Origin: an uncultured Lachnospiraceae bacterium
GTDB taxonomy: Bacteria > Bacillota > Clostridia > Lachnospirales > Lachnospiraceae
Length of the DNA: 32,310 nucleotides
Reading direction: 5' to 3'
NCBI GenBank assembly: GCA_947624815.1
Contig: CANQME010000030.1
Span: forward strand, 1 to 32,310
Below the pieces are notes generated by a model. It worked only from the letters and a program-made list of their open reading frames with translations. It did no database searches and was not told the origin of the DNA. The translations under genes and the position numbers were made by a program. This document shows positions 9,038 through 32,085 of this stretch, piece by piece (position 1 is the first letter of the stretch; the number at the start of each line of letters is the position of its first letter).

Positions 9038-10225
9038 ATGAAAATAAAACGCTTAATTAGGTCATGTTTGAGGGATACCAGAAATTGTATCATCAAGGTC
9101 TTTAACCTGTTTCCGATCAGCGACATTATTCTTTTTGAAAGTAATCCGGATTTTAATGATGAAGGATACTGGATGTGTAAAAAGTTTTTGGCTGAAGGAA
9201 TGGATCAGAAATATAGCATCTACTGGTATTTAAAAGATCATAACAGCAAAATACCGAACGGTTGGAATATTTCGTGTATTTATGTTAAACCGCAGAGTTT
9301 AAGACAATGGATAACGAAATACTATGTTCTGCATACAGCAAAGTGTATTCTGGATTCCTGTATGTTCATACCTAAAAGAAAAAAGGAGCAGTTCCGATTG
9401 TTTCTCCATCATGGAATGCCAATAAAAAGAATAGATAAATATATAGAATCCATGGGAGATTATGATTATGTTTCTATTGGGTCTTCGTTTTTTAGCGAAT
9501 ATTACGAAAGAGTAGGCGTGCCGAAAGAAAAGCAGGTAGCTGTAGGATATTCGCGAAATGATCAATTGAGATTGGCTCAAAATTGGATAAACAGGATTTT
9601 CCAGATATCTAATAGTAATAAAGTTATTATGTGGATGCCGACATACCGGCAGCATGAGAGTTCTGATACCGGTTGCAACGTTCCTATTGATACAAGTAAT
9701 GAGACAGGATTGCCAATCATTAAAACTTTTGAAGATGCGCTTATTGTTAATCAAAGGCTTTCAGAAAACCGAGAATTGTTGGTAATTAAACCGCATCAAT
9801 CGCAGGATGTACAGTATTTAAAAATTGAGGAATTGACAAATATAAAGATAATATCAACTAAAATGCTTCAGGAAAATGGAATACAACTCTATTCCCTTTT
9901 GGCTGAAATGGATGCTTTGATTACCGATTATTCTTCTGTATATATAGATTTTTTATTAACAGGAAAACCAATAGGATTAACTATTGACGATATTACCATA
10001 TATGAAAAAGAAGTAGGTTTTGCAGTCAACGATTATAAGAAAGACATTCAAGGGTTCTATATTAATGATATAAAGGATTTTTTTGAGTTTTTAGATAGAA
10101 TTAATATAGATCCAGAATTTATGAAAAATATTATGCATACTGCTTACTTAAGGTTTCATGATGAAACAGAATTTACATCATCTGAGAGATTGTTTCGATT
10201 CATAAAGGATAAGGCTAATCTATGA
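9038..10225 (+). CDS. CDP-glycerol glycerophosphotransferase family protein
   Basis: Teichoic-acid-type polyol-phosphate transferase (TagB/TagF family fold), predicted to move a polyol-phosphate from a CDP-polyol onto the glycan or a growing chain at the cytoplasmic membrane. 395 residues starting at ATG 9038, with GAAAGAAGG upstream. Family motifs: HHGMPIKRI near 124, GYSRNDQL near 168, IMWMPTYR near 197, LLVIKPHQS near 248 and ALITDYSSVYIDFLLTGKP near 293-310. It lacks the long repeats of polymerising TagF proteins, so single addition is as likely as chain synthesis. The cassette directly downstream may supply its donor. No tagD/tarD-like CDP-glycerol gene or tarI/tarJ pair is in the window. 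Confidence 0.88.
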   Translation: MKIKRLIRSCLRDTRNCIIKVFNLFPISDIILFESNPDFNDEGYWMCKKFLAEGMDQKYSIYWYLKDHNSKIPNGWNISCIYVKPQSLRQWITKYYVLHTAKCILDSCMFIPKRKKEQFRLFLHHGMPIKRIDKYIESMGDYDYVSIGSSFFSEYYERVGVPKEKQVAVGYSRNDQLRLAQNWINRIFQISNSNKVIMWMPTYRQHESSDTGCNVPIDTSNETGLPIIKTFEDALIVNQRLSENRELLVIKPHQSQDVQYLKIEELTNIKIISTKMLQENGIQLYSLLAEMDALITDYSSVYIDFLLTGKPIGLTIDDITIYEKEVGFAVNDYKKDIQGFYINDIKDFFEFLDRINIDPEFMKNIMHTAYLRFHDETEFTSSERLFRFIKDKANL

Positions 10226-10392
10226 ATAATAATATTATTAAAGTTAGCTAAGAACGGTTGACTGGGTTCAGTTAAACTTTTAAAAGTCCCGATATATTGG
10301 AGAGTTACTATATAACAGTTAAAGGTCGAATTTGTTGTATAGTCTATAGAGTGGCTTTCGTTTAGTAATCACCGACTTATGGAGAAGAACCA

Positions 10393-10419
10393 ATGAAAGG
10401 CATATATGGTGCACAATAA
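10393..10419 (+). other. Eight-codon leader or vestigial start ahead of the aldolase gene
   Basis: ATG 10393 has GGAGAA (10381-10386) at good spacing and encodes MKGIYGAQ before TAA. MKGI is the usual opening of RmlA-type nucleotidyltransferases, so this may be the residue of a replaced gene; it could also be chance or a regulatory leader peptide. The hairpin at 408-427 of the same kilobase overlaps its end. Confidence 0.2.
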
Positions 10420-10427
10420 TATGCACC
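10408..10427 (+). other. Hairpin just upstream of the aldolase start
   Basis: GGTGCA (10408-10413) pairs with TGCACC (10422-10427) around an eight-base loop. It ends ten bases before ATG 10438, where a ribosome binding site would normally be. No Shine-Dalgarno sequence is visible for the aldolase gene, so initiation may depend on coupling or on this structure. Confidence 0.35.
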
Positions 10428-10437
10428 GAAAATACTA

Positions 10438-11253
10438 ATGAATACATTTAACATGAATAGTGAAAAAGTTTTAGCTATCAACATCTGGGATTATAATTCA
10501 GTTGCGGCCGCTATAGAGGCAGCCGCATTTTATAAGAGGTGCATTATACTTCAGACTTCCGTCGGCATATATAAAAAACTGCCCAGGAAGCCATTCAGGG
10601 ATTTTGTCCGCTCCTATGCCGCAGCGGCAGGAACAGAAGTTTATCTGAACATTGACCATTGCAGGGATCCCCAGATGGTGAAAGATGCTGTCGATAACGG
10701 CTGGGACATGGTGATGATCGATGCATCTGCGCAGTCGTTGCCGGACAATATCCGGATAACGAATGAAGTGATCCAATATGCGCATGCACATGGCTGCAAG
10801 GTTGAAGCAGAGGTCGGCCGGATCCATGGAACAGAAGACGACATCTTAGTGAAACAACAGGATGTTGCATCCAAAAGCGATATCAAAAGGTTCCTTGAGG
10901 AAACAGATGTGGATTATATCGCGGCAGCGTTCGGCAATGCCCATGGCGAATACCATGCAAGGCCGGAACTGCATTATGACCTGGTCGAATACGCCGCGTC
11001 TTTCGGTGTGCCTTTTGCGGTGCATGGGGGAAGCGGCTTATCAGATGGGGAGCTGAAAAGGCTTCTTGCCATACCGAATGTGGGGAAAATAAACATATCG
11101 ACGGACATGAAGCTGGCGTACCGGTCAGGGATCCTATCCGCATCCGACGCCGGGCTGTTTGAGCGGGAGGCCTTCCAGCCGTCGGCGGTCGAAGAGATAG
11201 TCCATGAAAAAATGTTTGAACTGGTATCGTCGAAACTGAGGCTATTCGAATAG
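10438..11253 (+). CDS. Class II (zinc) ketose-bisphosphate/ketose-phosphate aldolase
   Basis: Metal-dependent aldolase of the FbaA/KbaY/GatY family: reversible aldol reaction between dihydroxyacetone phosphate and an aldehyde. 271 residues, a little short of typical. Conserved elements are present: NIDHC with D73 and H74, VEAEVGRIHG from 122, GNAHG with H169, VHGGSG with H196 and NISTD near 219-223, so the enzyme should be active. Being in a polysaccharide cluster with a kinase, a dehydrogenase and a nucleotidyltransferase argues against ordinary glycolysis and for making or cleaving a ketose phosphate for a sugar or polyol donor. The first 20 codons are AT-rich and the rest GC-richer, putting a composition breakpoint inside the gene. 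Confidence 0.9.
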   Translation: MNTFNMNSEKVLAINIWDYNSVAAAIEAAAFYKRCIILQTSVGIYKKLPRKPFRDFVRSYAAAAGTEVYLNIDHCRDPQMVKDAVDNGWDMVMIDASAQSLPDNIRITNEVIQYAHAHGCKVEAEVGRIHGTEDDILVKQQDVASKSDIKRFLEETDVDYIAAAFGNAHGEYHARPELHYDLVEYAASFGVPFAVHGGSGLSDGELKRLLAIPNVGKINISTDMKLAYRSGILSASDAGLFEREAFQPSAVEEIVHEKMFELVSSKLRLFE

Positions 11254-11297
11254 GCTGTGCTCGGCCTAATGATTACATGCAGCAGAGGAGATAAACT

Positions 11298-12833
11298 GTG
11301 AAAAGAAACATACTTGTACTGAACATGGGGATGAAGAGCATCCGCTGCATCATATTTGATGAATCGGGAAGGAAAGTATCGTCCGCAGCTCAGGCGATAG
11401 TCACGGCCATCAATGAGGACTGTGTAGAACAGGATCCCGACGAATGGTGGGACAAGGCTGTCCTGGTAATGAAGAAAGCTTGCCATGATGCCGGGATCCG
11501 GCGTATCGATTACATAACGGTCACTGCTTCCGCATCGTGCCTGGTGTGTGTCGGTGAGAACGGCGGGACGATTGGGAAAGCGGTCATGGTTTCTGACAAG
11601 AGGGCTGCCGCGGAGGCCGTAGAGATAGAGGCCCTGCCGGAGTATCCACCCGTTTTGGCAGACACGGGGCTGGCAGTTTCCGTGAGCCTTATGCTGCCCA
11701 AGATCCTATGGTTCAGGAAAAATGAGCCGGGGATCTTTGAACGGACAAGATACTTTATGACCCCCAATGATTTCCTGGTATTCCGGTTATGCGGGAATGC
11801 AGTCACGGATGAGCTGAATGCATCCAAATATCACTATGACCCGGAGAGGGGAGTGTATCCGGCAAAGCTGTTGGCGGCATTGGGGATACTGGAGGACAGG
11901 CTCCCCAAAGTTATTTCTACCGGTACGGATGTGGGCGGACTTCTGGCCGCGGCGGCGGACGCCATAGGCATTGACCGCAGCGCGAGGGTGGTGCTGACCT
12001 CATATGATGCGATCTGCTCCTTTGTGGGAAGCGGCGTATGCGGCGAAGGGGAAGCCAGCGACGTATCCGGGACGGTTACGGTGTTCCGGACACTGAGCAG
12101 GAAAGAGTGTATAGGTGGGAACAGCAGGATATATAACTTGCGGTTCCCTCAAGGCGGTTTTAATATCGTCGGGGGTTCCAATAACCTTGGGGGCGGTCTG
12201 ATCGAATGGGTCAAGCAGTGCTACTACATGAAAGAGGAATACCCGTACGAGGTGATGGAGAAGGAAGCCGGCGAGTCCGAGATCGGGGCACGCGGCGTGA
12301 TCTTCCTGCCATACCTGTTGGGAGAACGGGCGCCGCTGTGGAACAATGACGCCCGTGGGGTGTTCTTTGGATTGGAACGGATGCATTCACGGAAGGATAT
12401 GACGAGGGCTGTTTTCGAGAGCACGGCTTTCATTGACAGGAGTTTCGAGGAAGCCATATCGGAAGAAGGGATCGATGTCACCGCTGTCCGCTTATCCGGA
12501 GGGCTTGCCAGGGTGGGCCTGATTTCGCAGATAAAGGCGGATGTCCTGGGAAAGGACGTTCTGGTCCTGTCAGAGTTTGAGACAACAGCAACCGGTGCCG
12601 CGATGATCGCCCTGCATGGCCAGGGCATTTTTGATTCCCTAGAGTCGGCGGCAGCCCGTTTCACGTCTGTGCGCATGATCATCAAACCTAATATGGAGAA
12701 CCATAAGAAGTATGAGTTGATGTATGAACTGTTTAAAAGAACCTATGAAGTGAACCTGCCGCTTTTCAGGGAGCGGGTACAGCTTATGGGACAGATCCGC
12801 GACAACAGGGAAACGCGGATCGAGAATCTATAG
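11298..12833 (+). CDS. FGGY family carbohydrate kinase with altered N-terminal phosphate motif
   Basis: ATP-dependent sugar or polyol kinase of the xylulokinase/glycerol kinase superfamily, 511 residues. Start GTG 11298 with GAGGAG at 11285-11290. The order of elements is normal: N-terminal actin-like domain, EQDPDEWW near 44-51, TPNDFLVFRLCG near 155, the catalytic aspartate D237 in LTSYDAI, GARGVIFLPYLLGERAP near 333-350, and RLSGGLAR near 396. The first phosphate motif, usually DxGTTS, reads NMGMKS (residues 9-14), so the conserved aspartate is replaced by asparagine. It may tune substrate or metal handling, or reduce activity. Substrate unknown; triose, tetrose, pentulose or a polyol are all possible. 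Second gene of the four-gene cassette. Confidence 0.88.
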   Translation: MKRNILVLNMGMKSIRCIIFDESGRKVSSAAQAIVTAINEDCVEQDPDEWWDKAVLVMKKACHDAGIRRIDYITVTASASCLVCVGENGGTIGKAVMVSDKRAAAEAVEIEALPEYPPVLADTGLAVSVSLMLPKILWFRKNEPGIFERTRYFMTPNDFLVFRLCGNAVTDELNASKYHYDPERGVYPAKLLAALGILEDRLPKVISTGTDVGGLLAAAADAIGIDRSARVVLTSYDAICSFVGSGVCGEGEASDVSGTVTVFRTLSRKECIGGNSRIYNLRFPQGGFNIVGGSNNLGGGLIEWVKQCYYMKEEYPYEVMEKEAGESEIGARGVIFLPYLLGERAPLWNNDARGVFFGLERMHSRKDMTRAVFESTAFIDRSFEEAISEEGIDVTAVRLSGGLARVGLISQIKADVLGKDVLVLSEFETTATGAAMIALHGQGIFDSLESAAARFTSVRMIIKPNMENHKKYELMYELFKRTYEVNLPLFRERVQLMGQIRDNRETRIENL

Positions 12834-12856
12834 AAAAAGCGGGGACGGATGATGCT

Positions 12857-14011
12857 ATGAAGAGATTTGAACTGGTCTTTCCGACGAAGGTGTACTTTGG
12901 GACCGGCATCGTTTCGGAGGCAATAAAAAAAGAAAGGGAGCTGTTCGGGAAGAGGACGTTAGTGATGATGACCGGGACAGTCCTGGAACAGCTCGGGTAT
13001 TTGGATAACTTGAAAAGTATCCTTACGGAAATACTTGGGGAAGATAATGTTTTCCTTTTCCAGAATGTAAGTCCAAATCCGGACATTGCGGAAGTGGCGG
13101 AAGCAGTTGCTTTTGGGAAGGAGAATTCTGTAGGTTCTGTGATCGGCTTTGGAGGCGGCAGCGCCATGGATGCGGCGAAGGCTGCTGCGGTGGGCATTGC
13201 TTCGGAAGAATCCATATATGATTACCTTTTAAACGGATATGAGCCGGGACCGGGAACGCTTCCGGTCATTGCCATTCCGACAACAGCGGGGACAGGCGCC
13301 GAACTTACAAAGGGAGCCATCATCTCATGCAGGGAAAAACGGATCAAATCGGGGATACGGGGCAGGTATCTGATCCCACGGCTGGCCGTCGTGGATCCCA
13401 CTTTTACCTACAGGATTCCTTATAACACGACAATGGAAACCGGCTTTGATGTGTTTTCCCATGCCGCAGAGAGCTACCTTTCGGTGAAGGCAACTGCCTT
13501 TTCGGACATGCTGTCGGAAACAGCCATTAAAAATACAGGGCTCTATCTGAGACGGTTATCTGAGGATCTGGACGACATCAAGGCCCGTGATGCGATGAGT
13601 TTTTCGAGCATGCTGATGGGTATGAATGTAAGGGATATCGGAAACTGCCTGCCCCACCGGATGCAGTACCCGGTTGGTGCACTGACCGGCACAAGCCATG
13701 GTGCAGGCCTGGCAGCCCTATATCCAGTCTGGTTACGGTATGAGTATGAAGTTAGCTGGGAGCGGGTGAACGATGTGCTCAAGTGGCTAGGCTATGGAAT
13801 GGCTGATACCGGTGGGGAAGCGGAGCGAATGATAAGGGATTTCATAAACGGACTGGGGCTGAACCGGACACTGAAGGACCTGGGAATCTGTAACATGAGC
13901 GGAGAAGACCTGGCCGGAATGGTCAGCGGGAACCTTAAGAACGACAGGCTTGGGGAAGTACCGGGGATCTGCGCTAAGATATATGACGAGTCGATGGGAC
14001 AGTTCGACTAG
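12857..14011 (+). CDS. Iron-containing (group III) alcohol dehydrogenase
   Basis: NAD(P)-dependent oxidoreductase of the Fe-ADH superfamily, which includes glycerol dehydrogenases, glycerol-1-phosphate dehydrogenase-like and phosphonoacetaldehyde reductases. 384 residues. GFGGGSAMDAAKA (about 94-106) is the nucleotide-binding loop and PTTAGTGAE (about 138-146) follows. All four metal ligands are visible: D198, H202, H267 and H281 (the last in TSHGAGLAALYP). In this setting it would reduce an aldehyde or ketone intermediate to the alcohol that is then activated. It is 23 nt after the kinase and 21 nt before the nucleotidyltransferase, so certainly the same operon. The cofactor metal and substrate are not predictable from sequence. 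Confidence 0.92.
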   Translation: MKRFELVFPTKVYFGTGIVSEAIKKERELFGKRTLVMMTGTVLEQLGYLDNLKSILTEILGEDNVFLFQNVSPNPDIAEVAEAVAFGKENSVGSVIGFGGGSAMDAAKAAAVGIASEESIYDYLLNGYEPGPGTLPVIAIPTTAGTGAELTKGAIISCREKRIKSGIRGRYLIPRLAVVDPTFTYRIPYNTTMETGFDVFSHAAESYLSVKATAFSDMLSETAIKNTGLYLRRLSEDLDDIKARDAMSFSSMLMGMNVRDIGNCLPHRMQYPVGALTGTSHGAGLAALYPVWLRYEYEVSWERVNDVLKWLGYGMADTGGEAERMIRDFINGLGLNRTLKDLGICNMSGEDLAGMVSGNLKNDRLGEVPGICAKIYDESMGQFD

Positions 14012-14032
14012 AGAAAGAGGGAAGGTGATTTG

Positions 14033-14776
14033 ATGCAGGCGATCATAATGGCGGCCGGCCGAGGAAGCAGGATGGAGCATCTGACGGATGATAAGCCGAA
14101 GGCATTTCTGGAAGTAAAGGGAATCAAGCTGATCGAGTATAATGTGGCTCTGCTGAGGTCGTTCCAGGTAAAGCGGATCATCATTGTAACAGGCTATAAA
14201 AACGAATGCTTTGAGGAACTGTATGGAAAAGATAAGGATGTAATCCTGGTTTACAATCCGTTCTATGAATTCATGAATGTTGTGGGCTCCTTTTTCATGG
14301 GGCAGGAATACCTAGACCTAAATGAGGATGTCATATATATGCATGCGGACACACTCTGCGCCCCTGAGATCATGGAAAGGATGATCCATACAGAAGGGGG
14401 CATGGTACTGCCGGTAGAGTTTAAGCAGTGTGATGAGGAAGCCATGAAGGCGCGGGTCGAGAATGGGCGAATCGTGGAGATCACAAAAAGCATACCGCTG
14501 GATAAGGCAGACGGGGAGTTCATCGGTGTGGCAAAGATTGACAGGAGCGTAATACAAGAGCTTAAGAGGTCGGTTAAGAAGGTATTGAAGGAGAAGAATT
14601 TCAACTACTATTTTGAAGGGGCTGTGCAGGACATGATAGACAGCGGGAAGGACGATATCATCGCAATACCGACGGATGGTATGTTCTGGGGAGAGGTCGA
14701 TTTCTGGGACGATTATAGCAGGGCCTGCAGAATGCTTCCGGAGAATCTTTATGAGATTGCTGTAGAGGAAAGGTAA
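14033..14776 (+). CDS. LicC-like sugar/alditol-phosphate nucleotidyltransferase
   Basis: Nucleotidyltransferase of the phosphocholine cytidylyltransferase/phosphonate-CMP branch, 247 residues. ATG 14033 is preferred over TTG 14030 because AAGG at 14022-14025 is then seven bases away. Features: IIMAAGRGSRM with the GxGxR nucleotide loop, DDKPKAFLEVKG, HADTL near 102-106 as the metal-binding aspartate region, EFIGVAKI near 163-170, characteristic of this branch, and WGEVDFWDDY near the end. Expected reaction: CTP plus a phosphorylated alcohol (or phosphonate) giving a CMP-linked donor and pyrophosphate. Last gene of the cassette with aldolase, kinase and reductase. The donor could feed the glycerophosphotransferase-like enzyme upstream. 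Confidence 0.87.
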   Translation: MQAIIMAAGRGSRMEHLTDDKPKAFLEVKGIKLIEYNVALLRSFQVKRIIIVTGYKNECFEELYGKDKDVILVYNPFYEFMNVVGSFFMGQEYLDLNEDVIYMHADTLCAPEIMERMIHTEGGMVLPVEFKQCDEEAMKARVENGRIVEITKSIPLDKADGEFIGVAKIDRSVIQELKRSVKKVLKEKNFNYYFEGAVQDMIDSGKDDIIAIPTDGMFWGEVDFWDDYSRACRMLPENLYEIAVEER

Positions 14777-14807: not shown

Positions 14808-15356
14808 TTAATTACTGCCATCAGAAATATTGCTGTGGTAACGGTTGACATTCCAGAGATGTGAATCAGGATCATAGGAGCCCTTGAACTCGTCGTTGCA
14901 GAGAGTGCGTGGGAGTGAGTCTGGCTTATGGAACTCGACGGAGCAGAGGACGGAGAGAACCTGATGTTCGGGAAGCCCTTTATCGATGGCGATGTCGCGG
15001 ATGGAGTGTGTGCCGGTAAGGCTAACGCAGGCGGCGAGGAAGGCGGTTGCGGAGAGTTTCATGGAAGGGTGTACAAAGTAGGGCCTTTTGGAGAAGGATG
15101 CGCCGCATTGCTTACAGAGGAGCCTTGGAACATGGAAGGAAAGGAATGATCCCTTTCCGGCGACGGAGACATGCCGTACGGTGAGGGAGCGTCCGGAGTC
15201 CTTGATGACACAGTTGCGGGAGCCGCAGACAGGGCAGAGCTGATCCGTGTCAGGACAGGAGATGAAGATCTCCAAGGAATGGGGATGATCCACGACGCGG
15301 TCAATGGAGACATCCTGAGGAAGAGAGATGAGTTTGTTAGTGATCTTTTTGGCCAT
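14808..15356 (-). pseudogene. ISL3-type transposase, truncated after the zinc finger
   Basis: The only minus-strand gene. 182 residues begin MAKKITNKLISL with a good AAGGAGG upstream. The N-terminal zinc-binding helix-turn-helix region is intact (CPVCGSRNC and LLCKQCGASF), and the protein reaches the first catalytic aspartate context (NDEFKG). It then ends around RYHSNISDGSN, losing nearly the whole DDE catalytic domain; full ISL3 transposases are over 400 residues. It is therefore a non-functional remnant, between the GC-rich cassette and the AT-rich flippase gene. Confidence 0.85.
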
Positions 15357-24704: not shown

Positions 24705-26393
24705 ATGAATATACTGATACCTTCTGCTACTCTGGTACCGGAAGAGCTTCAAAAAATAGGCAAACTGCCGCCAATCATCTACCCATTGAATGAGGGTATT
24801 GTGTTCGATTATCTTTATAAACAATATATCAGCAGAGCAGAAGAGATGATAATTATCTGCCATGAAAATGCGGATAAAGTACATCGTCGTCTTACTCCGT
24901 ATTGGGGGCGGCAGGTGCGGTTCCTGAGTTTGCCAGAGCTTGGAGATTTAGGGCATACTATTTATTATGGGCTAAAAAAAATGAAAGGTCCTGTAATTAT
25001 CAATTTTGCAGATACCCTGGTGATGGATGATGTCTGTGGTGCGGAAGGAGACAGCTTTTTCTATTCCGAATCCGCCCCATCGGAAACCTGGACTTTTTTT
25101 GAGGAACAGGGCGGAGTACTGACCGGCATTTATGATAAAACGAACGCGTGGATGAAGAATACGCGTAAATTGTTTGTGGGTGTGTTCCAGATCATGGATT
25201 CTGTGTTGTTCCGTCAGTGCCTGGAATCAGCCTTTAGTCAGGAAAAACCTGGAATGGGTTCTTTTTATTTTGCCTTAAAGCTGTACAGCCGGATAAGACC
25301 CTTAAAAGCTGTATACACGGACAACTGGTTCGATATCGGCCACGCGGATCGGTATTTTCATTCAAAAGTAGAGGTACAGGCGCGGGAATTTAACCACATC
25401 CGGATCGACCGGGAGCGCGGGATTTTAAGGAAGACCAGCGATGACCGGGAGAAGTTTATCGGGGAGGTTCTGTGGTATCTGAAGCTTCCTGCGGATGTCG
25501 AGTATGCCAGGCCGAGGATATTTACGTATTCGGCCCGGTATACGGATCCTTTTATCGAGATGGAATATTATTCCTATCATACGCTGCACGAACTGTTCCT
25601 GTATGGAGATATCGCCGCCTGGCAGTGGCAGGATATATTTGAACGGATCCGGTTTATTTTGAAGGATTTCCGCAGATACCGGGTTGATGGAGAAGGGATT
25701 GGAAGATCACTGGAGGAAGTGTATTTAAACAAGACGCTAAAACGGTTGGGAACGCTTGCGGGGGACGCGGCATTCTCGGCTTTTTTTGAGAATCCCATGC
25801 GGATTAACGGGACCGTTTATCGATCTTTGAATGAGATTTGCGGACTGCTGGAAAAAATGATTCCGTCAATGCTGTATGATGTCGATACATTCTGCATCAT
25901 CCATGGCGACTTATGCTTTGCGAATATCATGGTGGACAATAATTTCCAGTTCATAAAGGTCATCGATCCGCGCGGAAAGTTTGGTGAGTATGATATTTAT
26001 GGCGACCCGCGGTACGAACTGGCGAAACTGTTCCACAGCGTGGAAGGAAAGTATGACTATATCATCCAGGATCTGATGAATGTGGAATGCGAGCCGGAGA
26101 AAGCGGTTCTTGCGTACAGGATTTATGAACGGCAGAGGGATTTTGATCTGGCGGAAATATTCCGGCAGGTATTCCGGGAAGAGATCGGAGATGACCTGCA
26201 AAAGATTGAATTGATTGAAGCATTGTTATTTTTGAGCATGATCCCGCTGCATGGGGAGAGACGGAAACACCAGTATGCGATGCTGGGAACGGGAATTGAG
26301 ATCCTGGCGAAGGTAATTGACATTAAAGCGCAGGCGGATGCGGAAGACGGACGTGGCCCCGGCAGGGAGAAAGAGGGTACGGCAGATGTATAG
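24705..26393 (+). CDS. Nucleotidyltransferase-like plus phosphotransferase (APH/choline-kinase-like) fusion
   Basis: 562-residue two-domain protein starting at ATG 24705 behind AAAGAGG. The N-terminal ~220 residues have the shape of a sugar nucleotidyltransferase (MNILIPSATL, GHTIYYGLKKMKGPVIINFA and DTLVMDD, DNWFDIGHADRY), but the glycine-rich GxGxR loop is replaced by ATLVPEELQKIG, so transfer activity is doubtful. The C-terminal part is an aminoglycoside/choline-kinase fold: HGDLCFANIMVDN near 400 as the catalytic loop and VIDPRGKFGEYD near 419 as the metal loop, both intact. It overlaps the HAD gene by eight bases. Likely phosphorylates a small molecule or sugar to be activated by the nucleotidyltransferase at 26795. 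The substrate is unknown. Confidence 0.75.
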   Translation: MNILIPSATLVPEELQKIGKLPPIIYPLNEGIVFDYLYKQYISRAEEMIIICHENADKVHRRLTPYWGRQVRFLSLPELGDLGHTIYYGLKKMKGPVIINFADTLVMDDVCGAEGDSFFYSESAPSETWTFFEEQGGVLTGIYDKTNAWMKNTRKLFVGVFQIMDSVLFRQCLESAFSQEKPGMGSFYFALKLYSRIRPLKAVYTDNWFDIGHADRYFHSKVEVQAREFNHIRIDRERGILRKTSDDREKFIGEVLWYLKLPADVEYARPRIFTYSARYTDPFIEMEYYSYHTLHELFLYGDIAAWQWQDIFERIRFILKDFRRYRVDGEGIGRSLEEVYLNKTLKRLGTLAGDAAFSAFFENPMRINGTVYRSLNEICGLLEKMIPSMLYDVDTFCIIHGDLCFANIMVDNNFQFIKVIDPRGKFGEYDIYGDPRYELAKLFHSVEGKYDYIIQDLMNVECEPEKAVLAYRIYERQRDFDLAEIFRQVFREEIGDDLQKIELIEALLFLSMIPLHGERRKHQYAMLGTGIEILAKVIDIKAQADAEDGRGPGREKEGTADV

Positions 26394-26784
26394 CGGATAT
26401 TCCTTTGTATGCGATATTGACGGGACCTTGTGCCCGATCAAGGGTAAGGATGAGAGGTATGAGGATCTGGTGCCATATCTGGATATGGTGGCGAAATTGC
26501 GGTATTACCGGCAGAATGGGGCAAAGATCGTCCTTTTCACTTCCCGGAACATGAATTCGTATGGAGGCAATATCGGGCTGATCAACAAGAATACGGCGAA
26601 GATTCTTCTGGCATGGCTCGAGAAATGGGACATTCCGTATGATGAGATCATTTATGGCAAGCCGTGGCCGGGAAAGAAGGGGTTCTATGTGGATGACCGG
26701 ACCGTGAGGCCGGATGAGTTCCTGGAGCATTCGGTAGAAGAGCTGGATGAAATTTGCGGGAAGTCCCGGAAGGATTTGAAATGA
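26386..26784 (+). CDS. HAD-superfamily phosphatase, capsule-type
   Basis: Small HAD hydrolase of 132 residues. ATG 26386 is chosen because the protein then begins just before the catalytic motif, with GAGGG upstream and an overlap with the preceding stop; the open frame extends further upstream but has no family match. Motif I FVCDIDGTLCP (D10 nucleophile, D12 acid/base), motif II LFTSRN, motif III lysine in IIYGKPW, motif IV YVDDRTV. No cap domain, as in small phosphatases found in capsule loci. Probably removes a phosphate from an intermediate made by the neighbouring kinase or nucleotidyltransferase genes. Confidence 0.85.
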   Translation: MYSGYSFVCDIDGTLCPIKGKDERYEDLVPYLDMVAKLRYYRQNGAKIVLFTSRNMNSYGGNIGLINKNTAKILLAWLEKWDIPYDEIIYGKPWPGKKGFYVDDRTVRPDEFLEHSVEELDEICGKSRKDLK

Positions 26785-26794
26785 GGTGGCAGTT

Positions 26795-27523
26795 GTGGAA
26801 AAGAAGATGACGGTGATTATTACAATGGCGGGACTGGGAAGCAGGTTCCGGAAAGCCGGGTACCGGGTGCCGAAATATATGATCGAAGCGAAGGGGAAGA
26901 CGTTGTTCGAGTGGTCGATGGACAGTCTGCTGGACTATAATCCGCATGTTTCGAAGTATATCTTTGTGGTACGTAAGGAAGATAACTCCTTTGAATTTAT
27001 CCGTGAAAAATGCAGGATGTATGGTCTTGATAATGTGGATATCATCGGGATCGATTATCTGACAGATGGTCAGGCCACGACCTGTATGCTTGCTATGCCG
27101 TATTGTGAGGAGGATGCACCGGTACTCGTTTATAACATTGATACCTATGTGGAGCCATATGGGATGAAATATGCAGATATCAAAGGAGACGGGCATATTC
27201 CATGCTTCCATGCAGGAGGAGATCACTGGAGTTTTGTAAAGCTTAATGACGACGGAAAAGCAGTTGAAGTACGGGAGAAGAAGCGGATATCGGACAATTG
27301 TACACTGGGAGCGTATTATTTTTCTTCTGCTGGATTATATCAGCGGTTATATGAAGAATATTATTCGGATGGAAGTAAGCTTGAGAAGAATGAAAAGTAT
27401 ATCGCACCATTATATAACTATATGATTGAAAAGGGTATGGAAGTAACGATCAGCATAGTTCCTAAGGAGAAGGTACATGTATTGGGAACACCTGAGGAAT
27501 TACAGGCCTTTTTGGGAGCTTAG
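26795..27523 (+). CDS. Sugar-phosphate nucleotidyltransferase family protein
   Basis: GT-A-fold nucleotidyltransferase of 242 residues. GTG 26795 is chosen because GAGG at 26783-26786 is eight bases ahead; GTG 26786 is possible. N-terminal VIITMAGLGSRFRKAGYRVP and KYMIEAKGK contain the GxGxR loop and the activating lysine, VYNIDTYVEP near 113-122 is the metal-binding region, and KKRISDNCTLGAYYFSSAGL near 165-185 forms the product-binding part. Unlike the domain in the fusion protein two genes upstream, its catalytic loop is intact. With the kinase fusion and HAD phosphatase it makes a compact activation module. The sugar or alcohol is not identifiable. Confidence 0.85.
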   Translation: MEKKMTVIITMAGLGSRFRKAGYRVPKYMIEAKGKTLFEWSMDSLLDYNPHVSKYIFVVRKEDNSFEFIREKCRMYGLDNVDIIGIDYLTDGQATTCMLAMPYCEEDAPVLVYNIDTYVEPYGMKYADIKGDGHIPCFHAGGDHWSFVKLNDDGKAVEVREKKRISDNCTLGAYYFSSAGLYQRLYEEYYSDGSKLEKNEKYIAPLYNYMIEKGMEVTISIVPKEKVHVLGTPEELQAFLGA

Positions 27524-28379: not shown

Positions 28380-29184
28380 CATCATAATATTTAGATTATT
28401 ACGTTTTGGGACTTATGTTGACATAGGCGTTTGCATTTTCAGAAGAGGAGTGTTCAAGATGCATCCTAAAAAGCATCCGGAATATGATCCGGCGGCGCTG
28501 ACGAAAGAGATGATGACCAGGATGGCGGAAGCGTTTGGGAGATATGATGACCGAATGGGAAGAGGGCAGCAGCGTATGACACTGAATGAAGCGGCTGCCC
28601 GGTTCGGTATCACGTCCCTGAAAGCGAGAAAAATCCTTATCACGGCGGGGGTATATTCTACTGCTGTTTCACGGGAGGTTCAGGATTTGTACAGGAGGGG
28701 GAGAAGTGTTGAGGAGATCGGGCGTATATTAGATCTGAGCAGGGCCTCTGTCCATTCTTATCTGCCCTATTCAAAGAAGATTTATAAGATGGAGCGTCTT
28801 TCGACGACAGCGGAAAGAGAACTGCTGTACCGGAAACGGAAGAAGGCGAAGGCGGATCTTGCAAATGCGGCGACGGAAGAGAATTTTTGGAGCGCCCTGG
28901 AGACTTTCCAGGGGTATCCTTTTCATTTGACGCGGAGTATGGATGAAGATGGGAGCAAGAAATTCACTTATCGCCTGTTTGTGCCTGCAGCGGGAAGAGC
29001 AGGAGCGGGCCTGATCCTGGAACCGGATGGAATTATGATATCGATGACTGAGGTTCTTGTGGTTTTCGACAGAGTTTTGAAACTGCAGAACATGACAGAG
29101 AATCCTGAGCAGTTGGGAATATCAGATGACGGTTGTCTGTACGCGATATTGCTGGGGATCGGATTGATCCATTGTGAAGGAGTT
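28380..29184 (+). repeat. Long direct repeat, left copy (HTH gene)
   Basis: About 805 bases matching 31278-32082 at a constant offset of 2898 with no indels seen. Includes about 80 bases of upstream sequence and nearly the whole HTH gene. Long runs are identical, especially 28640-28745. Confidence 0.85.
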
Positions 29185-29226
29185 CGCGGCAGCTTGGAAT
29201 GCAAACCTGATGCAAATATGAGATAA
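28459..29226 (+). CDS. Tandem helix-turn-helix protein, copy 1
   Basis: 255-residue putative DNA-binding protein. ATG 28459 has GAGGAG at 28445-28450 with eight-base spacing and is conserved in the second copy. Two helix-turn-helix-like segments are visible: TLNEAAARFGITSLKARKIL near 36-55 and GRSVEEIGRILDLSRASVHS near 76-95, the latter resembling a sigma-70 region 4 or resolvase-type helix. The C-terminal half (FTYRLFVPAAGRAGAGLILE, SMTEVLVVFDRVLKL, LYAILLGIGLIHCEGV) is probably a separate domain of unknown role. The copy at 31357 ends right after EGV, whereas this one continues with 13 extra residues into remnant sequence, so its tail looks chimeric. Confidence 0.75.
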   Translation: MHPKKHPEYDPAALTKEMMTRMAEAFGRYDDRMGRGQQRMTLNEAAARFGITSLKARKILITAGVYSTAVSREVQDLYRRGRSVEEIGRILDLSRASVHSYLPYSKKIYKMERLSTTAERELLYRKRKKAKADLANAATEENFWSALETFQGYPFHLTRSMDEDGSKKFTYRLFVPAAGRAGAGLILEPDGIMISMTEVLVVFDRVLKLQNMTENPEQLGISDDGCLYAILLGIGLIHCEGVRGSLECKPDANMR

Positions 29227-31277: not shown

Positions 31278-32082
31278 ACCATTTGTATTTGGATTGTTAT
31301 GTTTTGGGACTTGCGTTGACGTAGGCATATACATTTTCAGAAGAGGAGTGTTCAAGATGCATCCTAAAAAGCATCCGGACTATGATTCGGTGGCACTGAC
31401 GAAAGAGATGATGACCAGGATGGCGGAAGCGTTTGGGAGATATGATGATCAAATAGTAAGAGAACAGCAGCATATGACATTGAATGAAGCGGCTGCCCAG
31501 TTCGGTATCACGTCCCTGAAAGCGAGAAAAATCCTTATCACGGCGGGGGTATATTCTACTGCGGTTTCACGGGAGGTTCAGGATTTGTACAGGAGGGGGA
31601 GAAGTGTTGAGGAGATCGGGCGTATATTAGATCTGAGCAGGGCTTCCATCCATTCTTATCTGCCGTATTCAAAGATGATCTATAAGATGGAGCGTCTTTC
31701 GACGACAGCGGAAAGAGAACTGCTGTACCGGAAACGGAAGAAGGCGAAAGCGGATCTTGCATGTGCGGCGACGGAAGAGAATCTTTTGGGCGCCCTGGAG
31801 ATTTTTCAGCAGTATCCTTTTTATTTGTCGCAGGGTACAGATAAAGCTAGAAGCATGAAATTTACTTATCGCATGTCTGTACCTGCGGCGGGAAGAACAG
31901 GAACGAGCCTGGTTCTGGAACCGGATGGAATGACGATATCTATGACAGAGGTCCTTATGGTTTTTGACAGAATCTTGAGATTGCAGGACATGACAGGGAG
32001 CCTTGATCAGATGGGAATACCAAATGACAGTTTCTTGTACGCGATATTGCTGGGGATTGGATTGATCCATCGTGAAGGAGTA
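31278..32082 (+). repeat. Long direct repeat, right copy (HTH gene)
   Basis: Matches 28380-29184 at a constant offset of 2898. The two copies enclose about 2.1 kb (Rpn fragment, transposase remnant, DUF6155-like gene), an arrangement prone to deletion or duplication by homologous recombination. Confidence 0.85.
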
Positions 32083-32085
32083 TAA
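31357..32085 (+). CDS. Tandem helix-turn-helix protein, copy 2
   Basis: 242-residue paralogue of the protein at 28459, beginning MHPKKHPDYDSVALTKEMM from ATG 31357 with GAGGAG eight bases ahead; the longer frame from 31294 runs into the shared non-coding leader. Both helix-turn-helix segments are preserved (TLNEAAAQFGITSLKARKIL and GRSVEEIGRILDLSRASIHS). The C-terminal half has diverged more than the N-terminal half (LYAILLGIGLIHREGV then stop), fitting a conserved DNA-binding part and a freer C-terminal domain. This copy has the natural C-terminus. Possible regulator of a nearby element; the target is unknown. Confidence 0.75.
   Translation: MHPKKHPDYDSVALTKEMMTRMAEAFGRYDDQIVREQQHMTLNEAAAQFGITSLKARKILITAGVYSTAVSREVQDLYRRGRSVEEIGRILDLSRASIHSYLPYSKMIYKMERLSTTAERELLYRKRKKAKADLACAATEENLLGALEIFQQYPFYLSQGTDKARSMKFTYRMSVPAAGRTGTSLVLEPDGMTISMTEVLMVFDRILRLQDMTGSLDQMGIPNDSFLYAILLGIGLIHREGV

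Follow-up and report, generated by a model that had tools for sequence, protein, structure and literature searches.

Phosphodiester-linked alcohols decorate surface glycans, and for many loci the donor of such a group cannot be read from the genes. Several donor pathways based on cytidine diphosphate (CDP) have been described. In the pneumococcal annotation, genes for a dehydrogenase (gtp1), a nucleotidyl transferase (gtp2) and a phosphotransferase (gtp3) lie next to that for a glycerol phosphotransferase, wchX (PMC3493582). In ribitol-fed human cells, CDP-ribitol is described as being formed via aldose reductase, FGGY and ISPD, with transfer by FKTN and FKRP, FGGY being dispensable at normal ribitol levels (PMC4873967). 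As for the bacterial transferases, PF04464 is said to include TagF and TarF (PMC11666461), and LicD proteins to use CDP conjugates (PMC11666461, PMC4873967). I analysed a stretch of 32,310 nucleotides from an uncultured Lachnospiraceae bacterium (contig CANQME010000030.1 of assembly GCA_947624815.1; hereafter the window, meaning the whole stretch). The window includes a polysaccharide locus, among whose genes are one of the Wzx type and one for a sugar transferase. It carries a cassette of four genes, coding for an aldolase, a kinase, an iron-containing alcohol dehydrogenase and a nucleotidyltransferase, which probably makes a CDP-activated alcohol.

A conserved four-gene cassette

The cassette and the gene upstream of it consist of five complete open reading frames (ORFs), named here as follows.

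9038-10225, plus strand: GPT, CDP-glycerol glycerophosphotransferase-like transferase (PF04464, 114 bits, 7.4e-33)
10438-11253, plus strand: ALD, class II (zinc, dihydroxyacetone phosphate (DHAP)-type) aldolase (PF01116, 203 bits, 7e-60)
11298-12833, plus strand: KIN, FGGY kinase resembling XylB/gluconokinase, with distinctive residues at the specificity positions (PF00370/PF02782)
12857-14011, plus strand: ADH, iron-containing alcohol dehydrogenase, putative aldehyde reductase (PF00465/PF25137)
14030-14776, plus strand: NTP, cytidylyltransferase resembling LicC, PntC and inositol-1-phosphate cytidylyltransferase (IPCT) (PF12804/PF00483)

An earlier note, made from the letters of this DNA alone, had described the last four genes as tightly spaced and the catalytic residues of the aldolase, dehydrogenase and nucleotidyltransferase as intact. 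Both statements hold: the gaps are 44 nt (ALD-KIN), 23 nt (KIN-ADH) and 18 nt (ADH-NTP, or 21 nt counted from the ATG at 14033, the likely start of NTP), and the residues are complete in the window and conserved across the cassette copies. The same note placed the cassette immediately after a glycerophosphotransferase gene. A PF04464 gene does lie upstream, but it ends 212 nt before ALD and has a G+C content of 0.325, as against 0.47-0.54 in ALD, KIN, ADH and NTP.

Other copies were collected by scanning one genome per species (84,980 species) with a kinase alignment in the form of two peptide motifs, derived from four cassette copies. The scan returned 50 loci, namely 48 with cassette kinases and two with other FGGY kinases (L091, L092), which are excluded from the counts; together with the window, 49 loci were counted. 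L045, L048 and L070 coincide in position with L032, L033 and L031, respectively, and only the first three entered the counts. Judging by contig names, L045 and L070 share a genome, as do L047 and L055. Co-occurrence of the four families in other genomes, which the note had named as a check, is confirmed: the full ALD-KIN-ADH-NTP set is found in 40 of the 49 loci, window included. Five more have KIN, ADH and NTP without ALD (L044, L056, L071, L075, L086), and the remaining four are cut by contig ends (L046, L047, L082, L084). Where the contig extends sufficiently on the ALD-KIN-ADH-NTP side, as it does in 45 loci, NTP always stands beside KIN and ADH. The gene order is rearranged in three loci without loss of any member: L060 (Selenomonas) and L087 read GPT-KIN-NTP-ALD-ADH, and in L083 (Cohnella) a PF01066 gene lies between NTP and ALD. 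Record names assign the copies to Lachnospiraceae and other Clostridia, Selenomonadaceae, Paenibacillaceae/Cohnella and Treponema, mostly as metagenome bins. Moreover, the pairwise distances of the four proteins are correlated (r 0.91-0.95 across 36 four-gene loci), none of 1000 permutations reaching any of the six values. This correlation is owed in part to shared descent.

The module is a rare one: among 397 sampled genomes of the family, NTP (E 1e-60) and KIN (E 1e-120) each retrieved the window's own genome (G000, 87.8% complete) alone. An NTP search of 99 genomes (G000 and relatives) gave four places with at least 50% identity, each of which has the complete cassette. One is the window, two lie in genome G003 and one in genome G007, which amounts to 3 of 26 genomes of the genus. 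The same kind of search in 398 Bacilli genomes detected a single cassette, in Cohnella, the surroundings having been viewed in 18 of the 72 other matching genomes. Carriage of a cassette copy on plasmids was considered and rejected: there was no KIN match at 1e-60, and the NTP matches, in 11 records, were only 24-31% identical. Searches of the open-licence literature yielded no description of this enzyme set. As a separate observation, the genome that harbours both L045 and L070 (G506) has seven phosphoenolpyruvate (PEP) mutase matches above the family cut-off in addition to its two cassette copies.

Catalytic and specificity residues

The ALD residues D73, H74, H169 and H196 are present in the window and invariant in 30 aligned ALDs, and a motif tally of 43 copies indicates that the zinc ligands, the catalytic Asp and the DHAP-phosphate motifs are retained (the FbaA residues are numbered D109, H110, H226, H264, D288 and Y328; PMC5434028). 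The arginine of the DPR motif, by contrast, is gone in 42 of the 43 ALDs, with a basic residue in that column in none of the 42; the fructose-1,6-bisphosphate aldolase (FBA) of the window's own genome has DPR. In FbaA this arginine, R331, binds the terminal 6-phosphate. The closest solved relatives of ALD by sequence are 8q57 and 8q58 (SqiA), and the closest fold to its AlphaFold2 (AF2) model is 8q59, the sulfofructose phosphate aldolase SqiA. In the five genomes whose loci have no ALD, the best aldolase scores at most 191 bits, compared with 198-500 bits for cassette ALDs. Since ALD is missing from loci that keep KIN, ADH and NTP, and since those genomes offer only lower-scoring aldolases, ALD fits the role of a supply step.

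KIN has the FGGY fold and not that of choline kinases. Its catalytic residue D237, which the earlier note does not mention, is kept in 47 of 47 sequences, and the best score, 250 bits, is with the XylB model, below its cut-off of 380. The five specificity positions of FGGY kinases were taken from PMC3245297 and mapped by eye in the 47 sequences, which do not carry the glycerol-kinase signature R83, E84, Y135, D245, F270; the corresponding columns read A30/S17, S44/A3, S38/Y6/C2/G1, D47 and V40/A5/T1/S1.

The iron ligands of ADH (D198, H202, H267, H281) are found in 46 of 46 sequences at each column, and no NCBIfam model reaches its cut-off with this protein. In NTP, G10, G12, R14 and K24 are kept in 44 of 44 copies, and D107, E222 and D224 in 43 of 44 each. 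Its nearest solved relative by sequence is PntC (6pd1), followed by LicC (1jyk); the AF2 model, of predicted local distance difference test score (pLDDT) 94.9, has PntC, LicC and IPCT as best folds. NTP matches PF12804/PF00483 and not PF01467. The Pfam IspD family covers residues 2-74 only (36 bits, cut-off 27), and the NCBIfam ispD model gives 33.5 of the 181.3 bits required. In a quick tree, the 44 cassette NTPs form one group relative to 21 relatives from other settings (Shimodaira-Hasegawa-like approximate likelihood ratio test (SH-aLRT) value, 97.6).

Transferases and other genes beside the cassette

A PF04464-type gene lies on the same strand within 2 kb of the cassette in 27 of the 49 loci and a LicD gene in 13, the two never occurring together; six loci are cut, and three with full flanks have neither (L065, L071, L083). 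The labels come from custom profiles, Pfam having been run on three GPTs (window, L031, L060) and two LicDs (L032, L033), while PF01066 was examined in L083 only. Over the 48 fetched loci, which are not independent, 40 of 46 PF04464-type or LicD matches fall in the 2-kb flanks, which make up 28% of the non-cassette bases. PF04464, LicD and PF01066 are three families that use CDP-alcohols. GPT directly precedes ALD in L058, L062 and L074 as well. In a quick tree of 43 loci, two changes explain the distribution of the LicD and GPT labels; the window and L058, in which GPT precedes ALD, join the tree immediately outside the main LicD clade. The neighbouring glycerophosphotransferase had been proposed as the transferase of the pathway. 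PF04464-type genes are indeed common at cassettes, but GPT is the least conserved part of the arrangement, and LicD takes its place at other loci.

Two more gene types recur at these loci. The first codes for a fusion of about 455 residues between a TagD-like cytidylyltransferase and a GFO/IDH/MocA oxidoreductase (L031 4172-5539); its motif is found in 13 of the 49 cassette loci. Should this nearby TagD-like part be a source of CDP-glycerol, a different product would be expected of the cassette. The same fusion occurs away from the cassette in the window's genome (contig G000:C23, L145 9019-10353; a 454-residue frame, 125 bits against a cut-off of 165), so that the reported absence of TagD is true of the window but not, given this below-cut-off match, of the genome. 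The second is a GDPD motif, in 12 of the 49 loci plus L075. GDPD was considered as a replacement for ALD, being encoded directly before KIN in three of the five loci without ALD (L044, L075, L086), yet the motif occurs in ALD-bearing loci too and the idea was dropped.

The TagD-like gene is itself adjoined by a gene for a protein of about 850 residues in 10 of the 49 loci (L031 1596-4139, equivalent to L070; L049, L060, L065, L066, L068, L069, L075, L085, L086). The L031 copy of this protein was searched against Pfam and NCBIfam, with no match in either.

Proposed pathway and its rivals

The following chain is proposed. By cleaving a ketose 1-phosphate, ALD would yield DHAP together with an unphosphorylated aldehyde. 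ADH would reduce the latter to an alcohol, KIN would phosphorylate the alcohol, and NTP would convert the alcohol phosphate and cytidine triphosphate (CTP) into a CDP-alcohol, from which a phosphotransferase (GPT here, LicD or PF01066 elsewhere) would place the alcohol phosphate on the glycan as a phosphodiester. In this order the chain uses each enzyme once. The idea of one module making an alcohol linked to cytidine monophosphate (CMP) for a phosphotransferase, already put forward in the earlier note, gains support from the co-occurrence of the four genes, mostly beside a PF04464-type or LicD gene and once beside a PF01066 gene. While the protein families, the intact catalytic residues, the conserved linkage and the transferase neighbours are established computationally, I infer from them CTP as the nucleotide, the order of the steps, the direction of the ALD reaction and the nature of the alcohol. 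That the cassette is an accessory module supplying a surface glycan with a short alcohol or polyol in CDP-activated form, in the order ALD, ADH, KIN, NTP and transferase, has in my estimate about an even chance. For the alcohol phosphate, sn-glycerol 3-phosphate, choline phosphate and a phosphonate are all improbable. More tentatively, the product may be a CDP-linked short polyol or diol that is new as a donor, its alcohol being, for instance, ethylene glycol, 1,2-propanediol, erythritol or threitol. It would be obtained via aldol cleavage of a ketose 1-phosphate and would feed transferases of the PF04464, LicD and PF01066 families in two phyla or more (Bacillota and, by metagenome-bin names, Spirochaetota). 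Being recognisable by sequence, a portable kit of four genes would allow the building block of a glycan to be predicted from genomes, and would provide defined enzymes for assay.

The main rival to this order has the kinase acting first, as in the breakdown of fuculose or sulfofructose: KIN would make a ketose 1-phosphate (or 1,x-bisphosphate), ALD would cleave it and ADH would reduce the aldehyde. For NTP to have an alcohol phosphate to activate under this scheme, the initial ketose would need to bear a phosphate at its other end already. A kinase, a class II aldolase and a reductase are a known catabolic trio (FucK-FucA-FucO, sulfo-EMP). SqiA, whose structures are the closest to ALD among solved aldolases, is of a type that follows a kinase; KIN, for its part, has its top score with XylB, a sugar kinase. 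Against this order, the DPR arginine, with its role in holding a terminal phosphate, is lost in 42 of 43 ALDs; the five loci with KIN, ADH and NTP would be left with a stranded kinase; and NTP is beside KIN and ADH in every sufficiently long locus. The first two of these points make it more likely that KIN comes after ADH and acts on the alcohol, and they tell against the earlier suggestion that kinase and aldolase both act before the reductase. Kinase-first action is unlikely, if still the most serious competitor.

A second rival is modelled on pneumococcal types 15 and 23F: dihydroxyacetone or glyceraldehyde, supplied by ALD or by metabolism, would be reduced by ADH to glycerol, which KIN would convert to glycerol 2-phosphate, and NTP would turn this into CDP-2-glycerol. 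Wang et al. (2010) reportedly assigned the roles of the Gtp enzymes, with the same logic of reductase, kinase and CTP enzyme. The products of gtp1-3 and wchX carry matching roles by annotation, whereas no aldolase is listed among the pneumococcal genes in that annotation (PMC3493582). KIN, moreover, lacks the glycerol-contacting GlpK residues R83, E84 and F270 and has Y135 in only 6 of 47 sequences, positions that were mapped by eye. As the gtp genes were matched to the cassette by annotated roles alone, a glycerol-2-phosphate donor keeps some place among the candidates, but a rather improbable one.

It is very improbable that NTP is an ordinary phosphocholine cytidylyltransferase unrelated to ALD, KIN and ADH. 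LicC is its second nearest solved relative and 8 of the 11 related plasmid genes are annotated as phosphocholine cytidylyltransferase family, but NTP distances track those of the other three proteins, NTP stays with them in shuffled orders, and the kinase of the cassette is of the FGGY type.

The last rival is phosphonate decoration, in which ADH would reduce phosphonoacetaldehyde and NTP would make CMP-2-hydroxyethylphosphonate, with ALD and KIN as bystanders. Twenty-six genomes, namely G000 and the genomes behind 25 of the 48 fetched loci, were searched with the PEP mutase model TIGR02320: 12 had no match, one had a match below the cut-off and 13 had matches above it. The absence of PEP mutase claimed for the window thus extends to the whole G000 genome as assembled, and since half of the cassette genomes have the enzyme and the window's does not, phosphonate is not required. 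Although PntC is nearest to NTP by sequence and fold, and loci L128 and L135 pair relatives of ADH and NTP with PEP mutase- and decarboxylase-like genes (judged by eye), this pathway was rejected as the principal explanation after the search and the NTP tree, and I consider it the least probable of all, because 11 of the 25 other cassette genomes also have no PEP mutase match, cassette NTPs group apart from those of phosphonate-type loci, and the distances of ALD and KIN track those of NTP and ADH.

Several points weigh against the ALD-ADH-KIN-NTP order or against the evidence for it. The locus has no source for the required ketose 1-phosphate, and SqiA, the nearest solved aldolase, presumably acts after a kinase that makes one. 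The Cohnella ALD (L083) retains DPR, and a Lys or Arg is present one position past the lost arginine in 16 of the 42 other ALDs; together these leave room for binding of a phosphorylated aldehyde. Five loci manage without ALD, and L065 and L071 have intact flanks without a same-strand GPT or LicD gene within 2 kb. The window's GPT shares, in long alignments, only 20-25% identity with PF04464-type proteins from the other cassette loci. PEP mutase is present somewhere in 13 of the 26 cassette genomes. Finally, the loci were gathered via two KIN motifs, so that distant relatives with other partners would escape; the permutation and binomial figures take the loci as independent despite their shared ancestry; and the NTP tree carries long-branch warnings.

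Other features of the window

Scans for promoters and terminators gave no excess above shuffled sequences, and an Rfam search gave zero matches. A tandem NusG-like pair (PF02357; 294-1271 and 1355-1933) lies upstream of the sugar transferase gene and has counterparts, 40% and 51% identical, in another locus of polysaccharide type in this genome (L145 17510-19246). Its presence at both loci suggests locus-specific antitermination factors. An ISL3-type transposase piece of 182 residues with a zinc-ribbon end (14808-15356, minus strand) lies 31 bp past NTP and has a 73% identical counterpart at L145 5200-5736. A possible second activation cluster (24705-27523) comprises genes for a protein of 562 residues (no Pfam family) whose C-terminal half weakly matches an APH kinase, for an EcbF/BcbF-type HAD protein scoring below the family cut-off and for another nucleotidyltransferase, of which the PEP mutase loci L037 and L038 have relatives. 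The ORFs 28450-29226 and 31294-32085, close to the window's end, code for proteins 80% identical to each other; the first has a weak sigma-70 region 4 match, below cut-off.

Comparison with known systems

The module is distinct from the phosphonate, TagD and TarI/TarJ routes, as originally claimed. Hydroxyethylphosphonate loci (PEP mutase, decarboxylase, iron-containing dehydrogenase, PntC-like enzyme) resemble it in that such a dehydrogenase adjoins a related nucleotidyltransferase (L128, L135), but the cassette needs no PEP mutase, adds an aldolase and a kinase, and has an NTP group of its own. The TagD route to CDP-glycerol and the TarI/TarJ route to CDP-ribitol likewise provide donors for PF04464 or LicD transferases. 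The cassette cytidylyltransferase, however, is neither of the PF01467 type, as in the former, nor an IspD/TarI-type enzyme working with TarJ, as in the latter; its reductase is an iron-containing dehydrogenase, and it has an aldolase and a kinase that both routes lack. The LicC phosphocholine pathway differs in its kinase, which in the cassette is an FGGY enzyme and not of the choline-kinase type.

ALD shares zinc ligands, catalytic Asp and DHAP-phosphate motifs with class II fructose-1,6-bisphosphate aldolases, and differs from them by the missing DPR arginine. SqiA is the nearest, and E. coli YdjI a near, solved class II aldolase; their setting is catabolic, without a cytidylyltransferase or a glycan transferase, and in this differs from the cassette.

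The human CDP-ribitol pathway uses an IspD-type cytidylyltransferase, ISPD, which is another enzyme than NTP; it has no aldolase and no gene cluster. It is nevertheless alike in combining a reductase, an FGGY kinase, a cytidylyltransferase and a LicD-family transferase, and the succession of these four has a precedent in the CDP-ribitol described for ribitol-fed human cells (PMC4873967). The pneumococcal CDP-2-glycerol system (Gtp1-3, WchX) is alike in having a reductase, a kinase and a cytidylyltransferase beside a glycerol phosphotransferase, matched by annotated role only (PMC3493582), and unlike in that the cassette has an aldolase and a kinase signature that is not that of glycerol kinase. 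The cassette is a real variant of the CDP-polyol donor pathways, a new variation and not a new type of system.

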